DNA of 64,000 nucleotides from positions 574,015-638,014 of the forward strand of contig NZ_GG700630.1 of the NCBI RefSeq assembly GCF_000162875.1, written 5' to 3'. The position numbers and the translations under genes are program-made. This DNA is from Slackia exigua ATCC 700122. Its GTDB lineage: Bacteria > Actinomycetota > Coriobacteriia > Coriobacteriales > Eggerthellaceae. Below, piece by piece: positions 39,740-49,044 of this stretch (the first letter of the stretch is position 1; each line of letters opens with the position of its first letter). The notes under the pieces are model-generated. The model was not told where the DNA came from. It did no database searches and saw only the letters and a program-made list of their open reading frames with translations.

Positions 39740-41617
39740 CTATCGTGCCCCGGATTCGATCGCGTCGTCGCATCCCTCGAACTGCGCATTGTAGAGATCG
39801 GCGTAGAACCCGCCTTCGGCCAGGAGGGAGCCGTGCGTGCCCTGCTCGACGACGTCGCCGCGGTCGATGACGAGGACCAGATCCGCCGAACGGATCGTGG
39901 AGAGGCGATGCGCGATGACGAACGCCGTCCGGCCCGCCATGAGGTTGTCCATCGCCTTCTGGATGCGCTCTTCGGTGCGCGTATCGACCGAGCTCGTCGC
40001 CTCGTCGAGCACGAGGATCGACCGGTCCGCGAGGATCGCGCGCGCGATGGTGAGCAGCTGGCGCTGGCCGGACGAGATGTTGCTCGCCGCCTCGTTGATG
40101 ACGGTGTCGTAGCCGTGCGGCAACGTGCGGACGAAACGATCCGCATGCGCCGCTCGGGCCGCCGCCTCGACCTCCTCGTCGGTCGCGTCGAGGCGGCCGT
40201 AACGGATGTTCTCGCGGATCGTGCCGTTGAACAGCCAGGCGTCCTGAAGCACCATGCCGAAGGCCGACCGTAGGTCCTCGCGATCGAAATCGCGCACGTC
40301 ATGCCCGCTCAGGCGGATCGATCCCCCCTGGACGTCGTAGAAGCGCATGAGCAGCTTCACGATCGTGGTCTTCCCTGCGCCCGTCGGCCCCACGATGGCG
40401 ACGGTCTGACCGGCCTTGATCCGAGCCGAGAAGTCGGCAATGACGGGGCGGGCGGGGTCATAGCCGAAGCGCACGTGATCGAAGGCCACGTCGCCCGCGA
40501 TATCGCTCGACGAGGCGCACGGCACGGCGTTTGCGGCTTCGTCGGCCTCAAGGAACTCGAAAACGCGCTCGGCTGCGGCCGCCATCTGCTGCAGCACGTT
40601 CGCGACCTGCGCAAGCTGGGTGATCGGCTGCGTGAAGTTCCTGACGTACTGGATGAACGCCTGGATGTCGCCGACCGTGATGACGCCGCGAATCTTGAGA
40701 TACGCGCCGAACACCGCGACGACGACGTACCCGAGATTCGCGACGAAGTTCATGACCGGCATCATGAGCCCAGAGATGAACTGGGATTTCCATGCCGAGG
40801 CATAGAGCACGTCGTTGGTGCGATCGAACTCCTCGACCTCCTTGCCCTGACGGTTGAAGGCGCGCACGACCTCATGGCCCGAGAACGTCTCCTCGATCCG
40901 AGCGTCGATATCGCCGAGGCTGTCCTGCTGGGCCTTGAAGTACTTCTGCGAACGTTTCACGAGCTGCGAGACGAACAGCCCCGATACGGGGATGACGAGC
41001 ATCGCCACGAGCGTCATGGGAACGTTGATGGACAGCATCATCGCAAGCACGCCCACGACCGTGACCGTCGACGTGATAAGCTGCGTCAGGCCCTGGTTGA
41101 GGCTCTGTCCAAGCGTGTCGACGTCGTTGGTGATGCGCGAAAGGATGTCGCCCGCGGTGCGCTTCTCGATGGATGAAAGCGTCATGCGGCCGATCTTCTC
41201 GGAGATGCGACGGCGCATCTCGAAGGCCGTCTGCTGCGACACATAGGCCATAAGCCAGCTCTGCACGAACGAGCAGGCGGCCGACACGAGATAGAGCGCA
41301 AGCGTCGTGGCCAGGATGCGCGCGACCGCTTCGAAATCGATGCCGCCCGTCCCGGCGATCTTGGCGGCGATGCCCTCGAAAAGCTCGGTCGTCGCCGTGG
41401 AAAGGACGCGCGGGCCGACGATGTTGAAGACGGTCGATCCTATGGCGAAAACGACGAGGACGACTATCTGGATCTTGAAACGACCCATGAAGCGCGCAAG
41501 CTTGCGCATCGTGCCTTTGAAATCGACGGCCCGCTCGCCTTGGATGAGGGCGGCTTCAGGACCGCGCGGGCGAAAGCCCCTCCGGTTCTTCCGCGAAGGA
41601 TCCTGCCTGTCCGCCAT
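39740..41617 (-). CDS. Heterodimeric ABC exporter, catalytic half
   Basis: The 625-residue half-transporter has six TM helices (about residues 35-330) and an NBD with Walker A GPTGAGKTT, signature NISSGQRQLL, Walker B ILVLDEATSSVD (catalytic Glu present) and the H-loop IAHRLSTI. It pairs with the upstream half to export drugs, lipids or peptides (MdlAB/LmrCD-like). ATG 41617 shares its A with the upstream stop (TGATG). Confidence 0.92.
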   Translation of the reverse strand: MADRQDPSRKNRRGFRPRGPEAALIQGERAVDFKGTMRKLARFMGRFKIQIVVLVVFAIGSTVFNIVGPRVLSTATTELFEGIAAKIAGTGGIDFEAVARILATTLALYLVSAACSFVQSWLMAYVSQQTAFEMRRRISEKIGRMTLSSIEKRTAGDILSRITNDVDTLGQSLNQGLTQLITSTVTVVGVLAMMLSINVPMTLVAMLVIPVSGLFVSQLVKRSQKYFKAQQDSLGDIDARIEETFSGHEVVRAFNRQGKEVEEFDRTNDVLYASAWKSQFISGLMMPVMNFVANLGYVVVAVFGAYLKIRGVITVGDIQAFIQYVRNFTQPITQLAQVANVLQQMAAAAERVFEFLEADEAANAVPCASSSDIAGDVAFDHVRFGYDPARPVIADFSARIKAGQTVAIVGPTGAGKTTIVKLLMRFYDVQGGSIRLSGHDVRDFDREDLRSAFGMVLQDAWLFNGTIRENIRYGRLDATDEEVEAAARAAHADRFVRTLPHGYDTVINEAASNISSGQRQLLTIARAILADRSILVLDEATSSVDTRTEERIQKAMDNLMAGRTAFVIAHRLSTIRSADLVLVIDRGDVVEQGTHGSLLAEGGFYADLYNAQFEGCDDAIESGAR

Positions 41618-43950
41618 CACGCACGCTCCCTTCCGAGCTCCTCGTCGGAAAGCTGGGAGGATGCGATTTCCCCATATGCGGGGCAGATCCTCAGGAGCTC
41701 TCGGTGAGTGCCCGTCCCCACGACGCGGCCTTCGTCAAGGACGACGATCCGATCGGCGTCCCTGATGGTGGCGATACGCTGGGCGACGATGATGACCGTC
41801 GCGTTCCCGAGGGCTTCGCCGAGGGCGCGCCGCACCGCGGCATCGGTTTTGTAGTCAAGGGCGGAGAAGCTGTCGTCGAACAGGTAGGCGCGCGCATCCG
41901 CCGCGATCGCGCGGGCGATGGCGAGACGCTGGCGCTGGCCGCCCGACACGTTCGCGCCGCCTTGGCTCACGGATGAATCGACGCCCTCTTCCTTGGACGC
42001 GACGAAATCGGACGCCTGAGCGACGTCCAGGGCCAACGACGTCCTGTCGGCCGATATGGATTCGTCGGCGAACGACACGTTGCTCGCGATGGTCCCCGCG
42101 AAGAGAAACGCCTTCTGCGGAACGTATCCGAGCTGAGCGCGCAGATCGGCCTGCGCCATATCGCGCACGTCGACGCCGTCCACCCGGATGGATCCGGACG
42201 TCGCATCGTAGAAGCGCTCGATCAGCTTGAGGACGGTCGACTTGCCCGATCCGGTCGAGCCGATGATGGCAAGCGTTCGGCCGGGCTCCGCAACGAACGA
42301 CACATGCTCGAGCGCGGGTTCGGCATCGTCGCCATAGGAAAAGGAGACATCGTCGAATTCGATGCGTGCACCGCCGAGGCGATCGAGCATAGAGGATGTA
42401 TGCGCATGGAACCCGTCTTCAAACGATACCTCGGCGAGGGACTCGCCATCGGAGGACGCGGATACCCGTCCCGACGCGGACGAGCGGCAGGACGCTTCCC
42501 CGGCCTCTCCCGCATCGAACGGGCGATGCGGCTGCGCAGGATCGACGATGGCCGGAACCGTCTCGAGCACCTCGTTGACGCGCTGGGCCGCTACATCGGC
42601 CCTCGGCAGGAAGATGAAGACGATGCCGATCATCATGAACGACATGATGATGACCATGGAATACGTGATGAACGCGATCATGTCGCCGGTCTGGATGGTG
42701 CCGTCGTCGATATACGATCCTCCCACCCACACGATCAAAACCGAAACGGCGTTCATGACGAGCATGATCGCCGGCTGAAGCAGCGCCATCGTCCGATTCG
42801 TGAACAGCTGCGCATCGCGCAGCTCGCCCGATGCCGCAGCGAATCGTTCCTCTTCGTATGCGCGCCGTCCGAACGCCCTCACGACCAGAATGCCCGAAAG
42901 CATCTCGCGTGCGACGAGGTTCACGCGATCGATAAGCTTCTGCATGCGGCGGAACTTGGGCATGGCGATCGCAAGGATGATGGAGAGCATCACGGCGATG
43001 ACGACGACGGCAAGCACGATGATCCAGCTCATGGCAAGATTCGTGCGGGAAACCATGACGATGCCGCCGACCGCGAGGATCGGCGCATAGAGCACCATGC
43101 GCAGCACGATGACGAGCACCATCTGGATTTGCTGGATGTCGTTCGTGCCGCGCGTGATGAGCGACGCGGCGGAGAAACGGTCGATTTCGGCATCCGAGAA
43201 CGAAACGACCTTCTTGAACAGCGCGCTGCGCACATCGCGCGCGATCTTCGCGGCCGTGCGCGATGCGATGAGGGCGACGAATACCGAGGCGACCACCATG
43301 ACGGCGGTCATGCCGAGCATGCGCGCGCCGATCGAGACGAGCGCGTCCATCTGCATCGCATAGGTATCGTACCCGAGCGCCCGATACTCGGCGATGGCCG
43401 CCTGGATGCCCTGCTGTCTGACGACCTGGGTGAATGCATCGTCATCCAGATCGGCGAGCTGCGAAAGGCGGGCATCGCCGCCGGCCGCATCGGCCGCCTG
43501 CTCCATGGCGTCCTGGATGTCCCCCTTCGTCAAAGCGCCCGCATCGTAGGCCTCGCGCATCCGGGCAAGCCGATCGGCGTCGAGTCCTGCGACGGAGCCG
43601 TCTTCGGCCATCGAGACGACGAGCAGAGGAAGGCTCAGGGCGTCGTCGAGATCGGCGCGGTGCGCGCGGCCGTACGCGTTAAGTTCCCAGGTTCCTGCAT
43701 CGGTTTCGTCATACGAGGATTCGATCAGGGCTTCATCGTCCTCGCTTGCGAGCATCGTGGCGAAACTGCGGGTCGAATCGCGCATCTCGGTCGGGCTCGC
43801 GTCCTCGATGCCGGACTGCTGGATGCCGACGTCGATGATGTCCGACGTCAGAGCAGGCAGGGACAGATCGGCGAACGCCTGCACGATGAGCAGCGCGGCG
43901 ATGGCGAGCACGGCCGGAATCGAATGCCTCAGATAGCCGAATACGCGCAT
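41617..43950 (-). CDS. Heterodimeric ABC exporter, half with large extracellular insert
   Basis: The 777-residue half-transporter has TM1 (VLAIAALLIVQAFADL), then about 150 residues of acidic, helical sequence before TM2 (about residues 40-195), much longer than the usual short loop. Its NBD has Walker A GSTGSGKST and signature NVSGGQRQRL. Walker B ends AYLFDDSFSALD, with Asp in place of the catalytic Glu, and the His-loop has Q (VAQRIATI). It is the degenerate site partner. GAGGTC is just before ATG 43950. A palindrome lies at its promoter. Confidence 0.9.
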   Translation of the reverse strand: MRVFGYLRHSIPAVLAIAALLIVQAFADLSLPALTSDIIDVGIQQSGIEDASPTEMRDSTRSFATMLASEDDEALIESSYDETDAGTWELNAYGRAHRADLDDALSLPLLVVSMAEDGSVAGLDADRLARMREAYDAGALTKGDIQDAMEQAADAAGGDARLSQLADLDDDAFTQVVRQQGIQAAIAEYRALGYDTYAMQMDALVSIGARMLGMTAVMVVASVFVALIASRTAAKIARDVRSALFKKVVSFSDAEIDRFSAASLITRGTNDIQQIQMVLVIVLRMVLYAPILAVGGIVMVSRTNLAMSWIIVLAVVVIAVMLSIILAIAMPKFRRMQKLIDRVNLVAREMLSGILVVRAFGRRAYEEERFAAASGELRDAQLFTNRTMALLQPAIMLVMNAVSVLIVWVGGSYIDDGTIQTGDMIAFITYSMVIIMSFMMIGIVFIFLPRADVAAQRVNEVLETVPAIVDPAQPHRPFDAGEAGEASCRSSASGRVSASSDGESLAEVSFEDGFHAHTSSMLDRLGGARIEFDDVSFSYGDDAEPALEHVSFVAEPGRTLAIIGSTGSGKSTVLKLIERFYDATSGSIRVDGVDVRDMAQADLRAQLGYVPQKAFLFAGTIASNVSFADESISADRTSLALDVAQASDFVASKEEGVDSSVSQGGANVSGGQRQRLAIARAIAADARAYLFDDSFSALDYKTDAAVRRALGEALGNATVIIVAQRIATIRDADRIVVLDEGRVVGTGTHRELLRICPAYGEIASSQLSDEELGRERA

Positions 43951-44124: not shown

Positions 44125-45264
44125 CTATCCCTGCATGGGTTGAGGGATCAGAGGCCAGAGCAGCATGCCTGCGGAGGTCAGCGATACGTCCCCGCCCTTG
44201 CGCTTTACAAGTCCCATAGACTCGAGCGACGCGAAGAACGCCTCGGCATCGGGATCGTGCGCATCGAGCGGCACGCGCTCGAGCGCACCGAGCCGACAGC
44301 AGGCAAGCCGGAGACGGCGCGCCCGGTCGTCTTCTTCGACGATACGATCGAATACGGCGTCCGGCGACGCGGAGCATTCGACATACGTCGCATAATCCGA
44401 TGTCGAATGGCAGAGAAAACCGTCGGCGACGGTCCTGGCATCCAGCCCGAACTCGAAGAAGTCGCAGCCTTGAAGCCGTGCATCATCGAACGCGCTTCGC
44501 GCTCCGGTTCGCACGAACAGGTCGCATGACCGATGCGCGAACCCTTGGCCTGCGAGAAAATCACGCGCGGCATCGAAGAGCAGGGATGCGTCGTCGATGC
44601 CCGCGGCATGCGCCGCAAGCGTTTCGTCGAGAGCGCCCGATCCTATGATCGAGCCTCGATACGGCTCGATGCGAATGCGTTTCGACTCGAAGCCCACGCA
44701 CGCGCGCAGCGTTCGACGGAGGCTCTGAGGCGTTTGCCCGGGAATGCCGACGACGATGACGGCCTCAAGGGTATCGACATGGAACCTGTCGAGGAAGAGC
44801 ACGGCGTTCCGCACGGCATCCGCATCGTAGGTCGCGCCGATCGCGGCGAGCTCGCGTTCGTGCACGCTTCCCACGCGCAGCGACACCGCATCCACACTGC
44901 CCTGGGACCATCCGGTCAGGCTTGCGGTGCACACGGTCTGGGGCAGCGCCTCCACGCAGGCTTCGCATCCATGCGCCAGGGGAAGCCCGCGGCGCGCCGC
45001 CGCCACGATGCGGCCGAGGCGGTCGCCGTTCATGATGCTCGGGCTTCCCCCGACGACCCGCAGCGCCTCGAACGTCACGCCGTCGAAATCCCCGCGGCGC
45101 GCCGATGCGGCCATCTCCGCCTCGAGCGCATCGAGATAGGCGCTCCTCGCCGCCGCGTCCCCTGTATACGACGCGCGATAGCCTGCAAGCTCGCGCGCCG
45201 ATTCCTTCATCTGGAACGGGATATTGAGCGAAAGCGTCGCTCGGGCCCGCCGCGTATCGTTCAT
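44125..45264 (-). CDS. HemW-like protein without the radical-SAM cysteines (probable pseudoenzyme)
   Basis: The 379-residue protein aligns by eye along its length with HemW, the radical-SAM haem chaperone. LSLNIPF matches LYIHIPF, VVGGSPSIMN matches GGGTPSLLS, AVSLRVGSVHERELAAIG matches the IGVQS region, and VVGIPGQTPQSLRRTL matches MGLPGQT. The CxxxCxxC cluster motif after IPF is replaced by Q18, S22 and E25. It therefore cannot bind the canonical 4Fe-4S/SAM site. AGGAGG precedes ATG 45264 and the frame is intact with good codon use, so the gene is expressed rather than decayed. The neighbours are the ABC exporter and the FAD reductase. Function unknown. Confidence 0.75.
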   Translation of the reverse strand: MNDTRRARATLSLNIPFQMKESARELAGYRASYTGDAAARSAYLDALEAEMAASARRGDFDGVTFEALRVVGGSPSIMNGDRLGRIVAAARRGLPLAHGCEACVEALPQTVCTASLTGWSQGSVDAVSLRVGSVHERELAAIGATYDADAVRNAVLFLDRFHVDTLEAVIVVGIPGQTPQSLRRTLRACVGFESKRIRIEPYRGSIIGSGALDETLAAHAAGIDDASLLFDAARDFLAGQGFAHRSCDLFVRTGARSAFDDARLQGCDFFEFGLDARTVADGFLCHSTSDYATYVECSASPDAVFDRIVEEDDRARRLRLACCRLGALERVPLDAHDPDAEAFFASLESMGLVKRKGGDVSLTSAGMLLWPLIPQPMQG

Positions 45265-45321
45265 CGCCCTTCCTCCTTGCCGACCGTGCATGCATGCTCG
45301 GCGCTCTGCGCCATGAGAGCA

Positions 45322-45364
45322 GCGCGCCGTCCGGCATCGGAGGGAGGGGAGCCGAACGGCGCGT
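45322..45364 (-). terminator. Hairpin after the FAD reductase gene
   Basis: A 14-bp stem with one mismatch and one G-T pair (45322-45335 with 45351-45364) lies 17 nt beyond the stop. No U-tract. Confidence 0.6.
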
Positions 45365-45380
45365 GCCATGCGAAGATACC

Positions 45381-47306
45381 CTAGAGGTGGGCCACCGTCT
45401 TTCCGGCAAGCCACCCATGCGTCATGGCCATACCGATCGAGTTGCCGGCGAACGGCGTGCTGTACCCGAAGCCGTAGCGGCCGCCCAGGCAATTCCCGGC
45501 AGCGTAGAGGCCCTTGATCGGCGTCCAGTCCGCCTGGCGCAGCACGTTCTGCGTCTCATCGGTGACGAGTCCGGACATGGTCACCATCATCGGCGCGGCG
45601 GTATGGGACAGCTCGGCCGTCCCGCCGTAGAAAGGCGGCGTATCGATGGGCACCATGTAGGCCTTGTCCTTGCCGTAGTCGGTATCGCCGTCTGCGGAGG
45701 CGCACAGCTCGTTGTAGTGTTCGATGCTTTCGACGAACGTCTTGGCCGCATCGCCCGAGTACCCCAGAAGCCCCGCAAGCTCATCGAGCGTGTTCGCGGC
45801 GAAGACGACGCTCTTCATCATCTTGCGCTCCGCCAGAGCCGCGAGTCCGACCTCCGTGCCTTGCGTAGAGCCGACCTCGACGGCCGCCATCTCGGATTCA
45901 AGCCGATCCATGTAGTCGTCCATGCCGAAGTTGGGCGCGCCGTGGTCGAGGGGCGCTCTGCCGACGGTCTGTTTCCAGTTGGCATCGGACACCCAGCAGG
46001 CAAGGCCTGCCGGCTGGCGCAGCCCCACCGGACCGAGCTGAGGAATGGCCCCTTCGTTGCAGAAGCGCTTGCCGTCGGCGTTGGCCATGTACACGGGCGC
46101 CGTGCCCCATGGACCGCTGGCGCCGCCGCCGATGCTCATCCAGCCGCGCGGGGTCGGCTCGATCATGCCGCCCGCCCAGCATCCCATCTTATGGCCGGTG
46201 CCGGCGCGAAAGCCGCTCTGGGTCCAGTCGTCTTTGGTCGAACCCGCCCTCTCGGCCCATTCCATGCCTTCGTTGAGCAACGCCCAGCACATGGCGGGAT
46301 CGCCGATGAAATCGCCGGCCGCGAGAATGACGCCCTTGCGCGCCTTGAAGCGCACCTGCCCGTCGGATCCTTCCGCGATAAGCCCGGTGACGTCGCCGGC
46401 CTCGTTCTGCTCGAGCACGATGCCCGTGTGCTCGAAGAACCACTGCGCGCCGTTCTCCTGCGTATGCCTGACGATGTACTTATGCACGAATTCGATGTTG
46501 TTGCCCTGATAGCCGTAGAACTGGATGTTGCACGGCCAGGTCTTGTAGCCGCCGCACTCGATCGGATAGCTGACATCGGCGCCGCTCCAGGCAGCTTGGG
46601 TGTTGCAGAGCGGGTAGTCGAACATGTTCGACATGTCGAAGGTTCCCTCGTCGGGCACATCCTGATCAGGAAGGAGCACCATCGTGCCCTTCAGATACAC
46701 GTTGCTGTCATCGGCCTTGCGGTCGGCCTCGTAGCTGTCGTAGATCTCCTTGTAGCGGTTCACCATGGCGCCCGAATTCTGCACGAAGGCGCGGACGATG
46801 TCGGGATTGACGCGGCCTCCGGCACGCTTGCAGAACTCCGCGGCGATCTCTCCGGTGTTGAACGGACCGAAGCCGCGCTTGATGAGGATGTCCGAATTCA
46901 CATGGCCGATATCCTCGCCGTACCATCCTGCCATGTTCGTTCCGGTTCCGTCCAGGTCGACATAGCTCGACCAGGGCTGCATCTCGACGACGCCGACGGT
47001 GGCGCCCTCGTCGACCGCGCCGCATGCGGCCATGAGGCCGGAATGCCCGCCGCCCAGGACCACGACGTCGAACTCGTATTCGTTCACGATCTTCGATTCA
47101 TCGACGGCCGGAGCCTCCCCTAGCCAGTCGCCCGGCCCGCAATATCCCGTCGTGCGATCGGCGGCGCCGGACTGGGCGGAACCCTGGCCCTGCACCTCCT
47201 GCGCCTGCTTCGGGCTGCACCCGGCAAGCGCGGCGGCGGCGCCCGCCCCCACGGCTCCGACCGCGGCACCCTTGAGGAAGTTCCTGCGAGATAGCTTCAA
47301 CATCAT
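45381..47306 (-). CDS. Tat-exported FAD-dependent reductase (fumarate reductase-like flavoprotein)
   Basis: The 641-residue protein has a Tat signal (SRRNFLKG, residues 6-13) and a lipobox-like LAGC (27-30), so it is exported and possibly lipid-anchored. The FAD-binding motif VVLGGGHSGLMAACGAVDEG begins near 70, and the C-terminal flavin region GRYGFGYSTPFAGNSIGMAMTHG ends the fold. No haem-binding CxxCH is present. Family knowledge: such FAD_binding_2 proteins act as terminal reductases for fumarate, urocanate or aromatic/xenobiotic acceptors with an external electron donor. The acceptor is unknown. It is divergent from a LuxR sensor, a recurrent pairing in Eggerthellaceae. Confidence 0.88.
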   Translation of the reverse strand: MMLKLSRRNFLKGAAVGAVGAGAAAALAGCSPKQAQEVQGQGSAQSGAADRTTGYCGPGDWLGEAPAVDESKIVNEYEFDVVVLGGGHSGLMAACGAVDEGATVGVVEMQPWSSYVDLDGTGTNMAGWYGEDIGHVNSDILIKRGFGPFNTGEIAAEFCKRAGGRVNPDIVRAFVQNSGAMVNRYKEIYDSYEADRKADDSNVYLKGTMVLLPDQDVPDEGTFDMSNMFDYPLCNTQAAWSGADVSYPIECGGYKTWPCNIQFYGYQGNNIEFVHKYIVRHTQENGAQWFFEHTGIVLEQNEAGDVTGLIAEGSDGQVRFKARKGVILAAGDFIGDPAMCWALLNEGMEWAERAGSTKDDWTQSGFRAGTGHKMGCWAGGMIEPTPRGWMSIGGGASGPWGTAPVYMANADGKRFCNEGAIPQLGPVGLRQPAGLACWVSDANWKQTVGRAPLDHGAPNFGMDDYMDRLESEMAAVEVGSTQGTEVGLAALAERKMMKSVVFAANTLDELAGLLGYSGDAAKTFVESIEHYNELCASADGDTDYGKDKAYMVPIDTPPFYGGTAELSHTAAPMMVTMSGLVTDETQNVLRQADWTPIKGLYAAGNCLGGRYGFGYSTPFAGNSIGMAMTHGWLAGKTVAHL

Positions 47307-47530
47307 GTCCCCTCTCCTTGATCCTTCTTGTCCCATGCGCCTGATCGGGCAGGGCGCATGGGAATCGTAGGCACAGGATGGAATCCAAAAGGGGCAATCT
47401 TTCCCATCAGAGGCCTCCCCTGAGGTTCCAAAATGTTCTATTTTTCTTGATTCAATACGTTTTCCCAGTTCGCAAGCAGAGAGGCATCGGAAGGGGCCGC
47501 AGAGGCGCGACCGCGCGCGACGGATGACGC

Positions 47531-47536
47531 TACAAT
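47531..47536 (+). promoter_or_regulatory. -10 element of the LuxR gene
   Basis: TACAAT, 27 bp before the GTG start and without a clear -35. Its position argues against the upstream ATG 47524 as the start. Confidence 0.4.
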
Positions 47537-47562
47537 GGCAATCGAACCGAGGGAGGGTCGAA

Positions 47563-49044
47563 GTGTCGAACCGTTCACGAGGAGGGCATGTCCTCCCGTC
47601 CATAGATCCGCGCGCCGCCGTCGGCTTCGCATGCACATGCGCATGGGGACACTATCTGACGGTCTTCGCGTTTCCCGCTTCGGCGGGACGCCTCTTCTCG
47701 CCCCTTGCGATCCTCTTGGCCGCCGCGTGGCTGCCCGCGATCCTGCGCCCGCTGCGCGAGCTTGCACGCCTTGACGGACCCCCGTCGCGACGCATCCTCG
47801 GCAGCGCAGCCATCTATGCCGCCGCGACGTTCGCCGGATGCCTGTCGCTCGTGCAGGCGGCCGCCCCTCTCCCGATCTCCGCCGCGCTTGCCTGCGCGAC
47901 TGGCGGCGGCCTGGCATGGGCCGCTCTGGCATGGGCGCATGCGCTTTCCCGGCTGGATGCTCGCCGTCGCTTCGGCACGGCCCTCGCCGCGCTGCCGATG
48001 TTCGGATGCCTCGACTGGGCCGCGGAATTCGTTCCCGAAGCCGGCCTGGGCGTCATGGCCCTGGCGTGCGCGGCGATAGGCATCGTCCTGCTGCATGCGT
48101 CCGGCGCCGAGACGGAAGCGATCGCCGACCAGGAACCGCCGACCGTCAAGGCCGAACGGCTCGCATGGAGCACCGTCCGTCCCTTCCGTCGCTTCGTCGG
48201 AGCCTACCTCGTCTATGCCTTCGTGTTCGGCATCACCTTCGGCGTATCGGGGTTTTATCACGCCTCCGGCGGATTCGGGGAGCAGGCCTGCATCGCCGGA
48301 TTCGGGCCGGCATGCGTCATAGGCGGGTGCCTGCTGCTCGTCGCCTTCGCCGTTCGGCAAGAGAAATTCGGGCTCGGCACGCTGAGCCAGATCATAAGCC
48401 CGCTGCTTGCCGCGCTCTTCCTGCTGCATATGCTCTTCGACACGCTGTTCTCGACGTGGCTTCCGAGCATCACCTTCTCGCTCTGGTGGATCGTTTTGAC
48501 CTTCCTGTTCCTCACGATGGTCGATCTGGTATGGCGCACGCCGTCCGATGGACGCACGCTCGGCTTTGCGGTCTGCTGGGCGCTTGTGCAGACCGCTCTC
48601 GCTGCAGGCGCGGTAACCGCCCAAGTCACGTCGTTCGTCTTCGGAACCGCCACGCTGACCGCGAACGCCATCACGGCATGCTCGCTCGTGCTCGTCGTCA
48701 TCGCGACGGCGATGCTCGTCGGTGCGCCCACTCCGTTCAGCAAGGCGCCCGACGAGCTCGGGTGCGCCGAGGGCGATGCGCCGCATGCGGCCATGCCCGG
48801 CACGGTCGCAGATCCGCTGCTCGGCATCTGTGCGGATATCGCTCGTACGCACGATTTGACCTCCCGTGAGGAAGAGGTGCTCGTGCTGCTTGCGCAGGGA
48901 CATACGCGCAACGGCATCGCCCGCAAGCTCGTCGTTTCGGATAACACGGTGCGCGCGCACGTCAAGAGCATCTATCACAAGCTGCACATCCATTCGAAGC
49001 AGGAGCTCGTGAACATCGTCGATGCGCGTCGCGCCGCGTACTAG
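47563..49044 (+). CDS. LuxR-type regulator with multi-TM membrane sensor domain
   Basis: The 493-residue protein has about 420 hydrophobic residues forming roughly 10-12 TM helices, then a C-terminal LuxR/GerE helix-turn-helix (LTSREEEVLVLLAQGHTRNG, VVSDNTVRAHVKSIYHKLHI). It probably binds a small molecule or senses membrane state and controls the divergent FAD reductase. GTG 47563 has GGGAGG at 6 nt. One-component membrane LuxR regulators of this type are expanded in Eggerthella and relatives. Confidence 0.88.
   Translation: MSNRSRGGHVLPSIDPRAAVGFACTCAWGHYLTVFAFPASAGRLFSPLAILLAAAWLPAILRPLRELARLDGPPSRRILGSAAIYAAATFAGCLSLVQAAAPLPISAALACATGGGLAWAALAWAHALSRLDARRRFGTALAALPMFGCLDWAAEFVPEAGLGVMALACAAIGIVLLHASGAETEAIADQEPPTVKAERLAWSTVRPFRRFVGAYLVYAFVFGITFGVSGFYHASGGFGEQACIAGFGPACVIGGCLLLVAFAVRQEKFGLGTLSQIISPLLAALFLLHMLFDTLFSTWLPSITFSLWWIVLTFLFLTMVDLVWRTPSDGRTLGFAVCWALVQTALAAGAVTAQVTSFVFGTATLTANAITACSLVLVVIATAMLVGAPTPFSKAPDELGCAEGDAPHAAMPGTVADPLLGICADIARTHDLTSREEEVLVLLAQGHTRNGIARKLVVSDNTVRAHVKSIYHKLHIHSKQELVNIVDARRAAY

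Follow-up and report, generated by a model that had tools for sequence, protein, structure and literature searches.

Substrates of the Tat system are folded and loaded with their cofactors in the cytoplasm prior to export, and dedicated chaperones such as TorD and DmsD serve the Tat-exported molybdoenzymes. In Eggerthella and its relatives, flavin reductases reduce compounds of dietary, host, and drug origin, digoxin reportedly being one of them, and we know of no dedicated maturation factor for such reductases. On the side of the HemN-like proteins, PsgB (TIGR04419) is already known as a protein that is, by its name, a non-iron pseudo-SAM protein, and HemW has been described without radical SAM activity (PMC11442138, in excerpt). 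Excerpts of PMC10320005 and PMC11834973 report HNxxYW as the haem motif of HemW, and the former also describes CgdH2 of Campylobacter as binding haem without HNxxYW.

The stretch of DNA analyzed here, called the window, comprises 64,000 nucleotides of Slackia exigua ATCC 700122 (Eggerthellaceae; assembly GCF_000162875.1), read from positions 574,015 to 638,014 of the forward strand of contig NZ_GG700630.1. It encodes a HemN-like protein without the cluster cysteines, for which we use the working name HX, next to a flavin reductase. The results below on the absent cysteines, fold, pairing, co-inheritance, and purifying selection on close cluster-free relatives were all obtained by computation. 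The features of the locus are as follows.

44125 to 45264, minus strand: HX, a cluster-free HemN-like protein of 379 amino acids (open reading frame, family models, predicted structure, and alignments).
45188 to 45219, minus strand: HX residues 16 to 26, the site of the radical-SAM CX3CX2C motif, where Q18, S22, and E25 stand (alignment columns; coordinates reckoned from the ATG at 45264).
45272 to 45278, minus strand: ribosome-binding site AAGGAGG of HX, 7 bases before the ATG (sequence).
45381 to 47306, minus strand: flavin reductase of 641 amino acids with an FAD_binding_2 domain and a twin-arginine lipoprotein-type signal, upstream of HX and 116 bases apart from it.
47524 to 49044, plus strand: LuxR-type regulator, divergent from the reductase (Pfam).

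The HX frame runs on the minus strand from the ATG at 45264 to the stop at 44125. A preliminary description, made from the sequence alone, had reported an intact frame with a strong ribosome site, the landmarks IPF, GGSPS, and IPGQT, and the replacement of the three cluster cysteines by Q18, S22, and E25. The frame, the ribosome site, and the landmarks were all found in the sequence (residues 15 to 17, 72 to 76, and 174 to 178, respectively), and alignments with motif-keeping relatives agree that the three replaced residues fall in the cluster-cysteine columns. No export signal was seen in the protein, and HX should reside in the cytoplasm.

Structure prediction gave the radical-SAM barrel that the preliminary description had anticipated. 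The AlphaFold model of HX is a confident barrel (mean pLDDT 90.5, pTM 0.90), its least certain block being residues 21 to 30, just after the missing motif (pLDDT 55). Over 352 residues it aligned with HemN (1OLT) at Z 29.9 and rmsd 4.1. Z fell to 14.7 for the next entries, and many further matches at Z 12 to 15 were radical SAM enzymes. Since phmmer also matched HX to 1OLT (E 0.0024), the likeness between HX and HemN goes beyond chance. Of the features that define the radical SAM superfamily, HX has the barrel and lacks both CX3CX2C and a match to PF04055: no Pfam model, PF04055 included, matched it at E 0.001, and a PF04055 scan of its own genome returned 17 places, HX not among them.

All NCBIfam matches of HX were to HemN-like families, each well under its own cut-off. 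The STM4012 family (NF006067) gave 84.1 bits against a cut-off of 380 and ChuW/HutW (TIGR04107) 67.5 against 400, while HemW (TIGR00539) gave 47.8 against 205.4 and HemN (TIGR00538) 34.4 against 324.95. The PsgB model TIGR04419 (cut-off 300 bits) did not match HX at E 0.001, so that HX passes the score test of neither PsgB nor HemW. In addition, the columns of the HemW motif HNxxYW read FDDARL in HX. HX is therefore not HemW, and we do not keep the name HemW-like that the preliminary description had given it; the identification with PsgB was rejected on the model score. Weak matches to TIGR04419 occur in 7 of 20 HX relatives, and a scan of 129 genomes from the taxonomic family gave no score as high as its 300-bit cut-off.

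Relatives of HX were collected by a profile search of 395 genomes of the order, which gave at least 40 places, counting the window, with scores of 212 bits or higher; counts are minimum values, as the best five candidates per genome were taken in the profile search, the best four in the order-wide HX search, and the best three in the reductase search. A score of 212 bits served as the boundary between HX and HemW; the block taken for HemW starts at 203 bits, and part of it was read. One protein at 186 bits (L143), whose match is short, unlike most of the full-length HemW matches, was added to make 41 relatives, and a fragment (L076) was left out of the tree and the residue counts. Hosts of the relatives include Eggerthella sinensis, Rubneribacter badeniensis, Gordonibacter sp. 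An230, Adlercreutzia muris, and a Coriobacteriia MAG. Orthologues of HX occur in other genera of the order, and the orthologue group consists of the window and 10 other loci. Within the genus, all 12 genomes gave a match to HX, but in the 11 others this was an ordinary HemW with CX3CX2C and HNxxYW, so that HX itself is present in 1 of 12; S. exigua has an ordinary HemW as well. A search of 296 genomes across the phylum gave no place outside the order above 240 bits, and the seven out-of-order loci that were read all encode HemW with both motifs. HX was thus not seen outside the order in this phylum sample, in which weak copies could hide among HemW.

Three side observations concern the distribution of the gene. 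Among the matches listed, none of the 11 other genomes of the genus has the reductase or the HX of the window (44125 to 47306), and the window reductase is up to 79% identical to reductases of other genera, which suggests that the pair was possibly acquired by transfer. The S. exigua genome contains a second HX-like gene (L003, or L076:3527-4264; about G000:C1:648865-649584) that is N-terminally shortened and adjoins a LuxR-type frame. Its locus of 20 kb contains no reductase, and the gene looks like a remnant after partner loss. In a Coriobacteriia MAG, L075:9674-11047 encodes a HemN-like protein that is cluster-free, has a long tail of low complexity, and has no adjoining reductase; the genes before it appeared by eye to be ACT-domain, indolepyruvate oxidoreductase-like, and CoA-ligase-like.

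By its descent from the HemN/HemW group, HX could carry haem or a tetrapyrrole, the role ascribed to HemW, in the service of the electron supply of the reductase; haem binding and delivery by HemW, with no radical SAM activity, have been reported (PMC11442138, in excerpt). Yet HNxxYW, present in 8 of 8 aligned HemW proteins and in 28 of 28 HemW loci, occurs in 0 of the 41 relatives of HX, the organism has its ordinary HemW (L002), and Pfam found no haem domain in the window reductase. Because CgdH2 binds haem without HNxxYW, the absence of the motif is not decisive against haem. As far as the alignments can tell, haem carriage by HX is not favoured by the missing motif, and we regard it as very unlikely.

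We then compared the cysteine state across the family. CX3CX2C is intact in 14 of the 41 relatives and not intact in the remaining 27, of which 14 keep no cysteine, 10 keep the first only, and 3 have the spacing CX3CX5C. In these last three (L138 to L140, from G371, G379, and G380), the sequence reads PFC...C with the third cysteine shifted, an arrangement that might still bind something and may represent an intermediate state or another kind of metal site. One genome of the order, G272, carries both kinds of HX, a copy that has lost CX3CX2C at 365,629 to 366,534 and a copy with the motif at 673,997 to 675,157. Eight of the eleven members of the HX orthologue group, the window copy among them, are cluster-free, and three (L067, L068, and L069) keep the motif. 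The window copy is thus not alone, and a lone mutation or sequencing error is ruled out, as seven orthologues and further members of the family lack the motif too. A tree built without the cluster columns, with HemW (all cysteines present) as the outgroup, placed the window HX, on a long branch, together with six other cluster-free proteins (support 99/94); the eighth, L070, joins these seven at 93/77. The cysteine state changed at least six times on the best tree and 5 to 7 times over the bootstraps, three changes being forced by well-supported branches; the count does not separate gain from loss, several of the branches are long, and two doubtful joins were flagged. As the HemW outgroup has all the cysteines, we read these changes as repeated loss rather than gain.

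The HemN residues E145, Q172, and D209, which belong to its SAM residues, follow a related but looser pattern. L067 to L069 keep the residues aligned with all three, and all eight cluster-free members of the group are without those aligned with Q172 and D209. Even among the 14 motif-keeping relatives, the Q172-aligned residue is kept in 3 and the D209-aligned residue in 5. Fisher tests of cysteine-bearing against cysteine-free proteins, not corrected for kinship, gave 0.034 for Q172, 0.0027 for D209, and 0.73 for E145, the last position showing no difference between the two kinds. Cysteine loss and SAM-residue loss hence appear only partly linked in the alignments.

These comparisons bear on whether HX is still an enzyme, though not a radical one, in which the pocket of the cluster-free barrel would modify the flavin, the reductase, or the substrate or product of the reductase. 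The conserved PQTV..SLTG and GIPGQT, which would lie at the presumed open end of the barrel, and the three cysteines kept by 14 of 41 relatives are what such an enzyme might show, but the SAM-aligned positions vary among the relatives, and sequence change is faster in HX than in the reductase: compared with L061 to L066, the window reductase is 73 to 77% identical and HX 31 to 38%. We consider a non-radical enzyme unlikely.

The dN/dS ratio, calculated with our own Nei-Gojobori script, was 0.07 to 0.49 in 11 close pairs without intact CX3CX2C (the pairs are not independent) and 0.02 to 0.23 for the reductases of those pairs; of two cysteine-bearing HX pairs, one gave 0.60, at a dS of only 0.02, and the other 0.26. 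Purifying selection acts on the close cluster-free relatives, and the window copy itself has no close relative in the genomes searched, so the word maintained, used in the preliminary description, applies to the relatives rather than to the window copy. A decaying relic that is not yet disrupted would account for a gene found in 1 of 12 genomes of the genus, on a long branch, and with a truncated, reductase-less relative in the same genome. Set against this are the intact frame with its strong ribosome site, the confident fold, seven cluster-free orthologues that stand beside an orthologous reductase, and the purifying selection in the close cluster-free pairs; the relic is disfavoured, and we hold it to be extremely improbable.

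HX has a very regular neighbour. A reductase frame homologous to that of the window lies within 1.7 kb in 38 of 40 HX relatives, with distances measured between stop-to-stop frames, and L143 has one too; no reductase was present in the loci of L075 (12.6 kb) and L134 (19.5 kb). In HemW control loci, a reductase lay within ~1.5 kb on each side in 0 of 28, compared with 8 of 14 HX loci of the same size. Two partners were reassigned by hand: that of L079, where the nearest reductase is of another kind and the likely partner, chosen by tree position (circular for that pair), is 6.8 kb off, and that of L124, where a long open frame misled the distance. We define a reductase-paired HemN-like group by a place beside the orthologous flavin reductase; the window HX belongs to it, with its reductase on the same strand. 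Nothing on this pairing appeared among the listed results of searches of the open-licence literature.

The tie to the FAD reductase at 45381 to 47306 that the preliminary description had suggested is also inherited. Elsewhere in the order, at least 12 orthologues share 60% identity or more with the window reductase; with its own locus, 11 have an intact context and all 11 carry HX, and the other two run off their contigs. By comparison, 0 of the 11 next-closest reductases (41 to 49% identical, in loci of 7 to 15 kb) have HX; for two of these unpaired reductases, L119 and L120, the contig ends about 0.5 kb away or less. The clades of the HX and reductase trees correspond, and the identities of HX and reductase are correlated (Spearman 0.42 over 38 pairs, equalled in 0 of 2000 permutations). 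A twin-arginine motif is present in 35 of 38 paired reductases, but unpaired reductases carry such signals too. The reductases have a C-terminal GRxAG-like motif whose arginine position (residue 632) differs between the two kinds: W, Y, F, or A stands there in 37 of the 38 paired proteins and R in the other, and R in 15 of 17 unpaired ones, with K and a gap in the others. That this residue goes with HX is a hint only, as the sequences offer 2 to 4 phylogenetically independent contrasts, and a search for cysteine columns marking all paired reductases found none. The residue, identity-correlation, and contrast comparisons were made without 22 divergent reductases, one of which is the L137 partner.

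Other genes of the neighbourhood follow HX less closely. The ABC exporter at 39740 to 43950, to which the preliminary description had also tentatively linked HX, is not supported as a partner, since ABC genes gave no match in the 10 other loci of the HX group; in a set of 20 loci, the ABC matches were only ATPase-domain matches in L071. The LuxR-type regulator is a probable companion, but a less constant one. A sensor or regulator, acting for example on this LuxR neighbour and kept near the reductase for expression control, could explain the LuxR-type matches in 7 of 10 other group loci and the place of the LuxR gene in L061 to L063 and L066, where it separates the reductase from HX. However, L067, L069, and L070 had no LuxR match (L069 and L070 are short contigs, and the L067 reductase begins near a contig end), and in 25 of 39 pairs HX directly follows the reductase on the same strand, the others being convergent (6), divergent (4), or with HX upstream (4). 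We find a regulatory role quite unlikely; the prevailing gene order suggests instead that HX is coexpressed with the reductase.

Our preferred reading, to which we give about an even chance, is that HX has ceased to be a radical-SAM enzyme and is instead dedicated to a single exported flavin reductase as its partner; proteins of this kind are probably helpers of exported flavin reductases and not enzymes themselves. A protein that has no signal and keeps to one Tat-exported flavoprotein would most simply be read as serving its maturation or quality control. HX would bind the immature reductase in the cytoplasm, keep it back or stabilize it until FAD is loaded, and then release it to the Tat system. 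The ancestor may have been a HemN-like radical-SAM protein that already accompanied such reductases, with the partner function surviving as the cluster was lost several times.

Several results support the dedicated partner: a barrel closest to HemN in which the cysteines and the Q172 and D209 equivalents are lost in all eight cluster-free group members; the adjacency (38 of 40), the co-inheritance (11 of 11 against 0 of 11), the matching clades, and the correlated identities in several gene orders; and the mixed cysteine states with one reductase group, together with the low dN/dS. P108, T110, V111, and L116 are invariant in ten aligned proteins, cysteine-bearing and cysteine-free, that accompany one orthologous reductase group, and the job of HX for a window-type reductase thus seems not to need the cluster. 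The reading is weakened by L075 and L134, which have no reductase, by Tat signals that are not special to the paired reductases, by the partial linkage of cysteine and SAM-residue loss, and by the faster evolution of HX.

We propose more tentatively, at somewhat less than an even chance, a class of flavoenzyme maturation factors derived from the radical-SAM fold, each serving one Tat-exported Coriobacteriia reductase, in which the [4Fe-4S]/SAM machinery was discarded several times independently and the function was kept. If so, cysteine-bearing and cysteine-free versions do the same job and the radical chemistry is dispensable. A partner that marks a subset of reductases would help to sort the many paralogues and perhaps to obtain active enzyme, and repeated cluster loss with the partnership kept would offer a natural series for the passage from an enzyme fold to a non-enzyme.

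Among known systems, HemN (PDB 1OLT) shares with HX the barrel and the C-terminal region, as the 352-residue alignment indicates, but HX is without the cluster cysteines, scores under the TIGR00538 cut-off, and is 18% identical. The haem chaperone HemW is likewise HemN-like and likewise described, in the excerpt of PMC11442138, without radical SAM activity; HX differs from it in having neither CX3CX2C nor HNxxYW, in scoring far under the TIGR00539 cut-off, and in being paired with a reductase, which HemW loci are not. The STM4012 and ChuW/HutW families, the best-scoring named families for HX, are both named radical SAM proteins. PsgB, by name a HemN-related non-iron pseudo-SAM protein, is likewise without iron, and it is the TIGR04419 model score that sets it apart from HX. 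TorD and DmsD offer the way of working that we propose for HX by analogy, in which one cytoplasmic partner gene stands beside the gene of one Tat-exported oxidoreductase; they differ in fold and have molybdenum enzymes as clients, and we do not claim membership of their group for HX. We rate HX as a pseudoenzyme from a known superfamily whose partner is new and highly regular.
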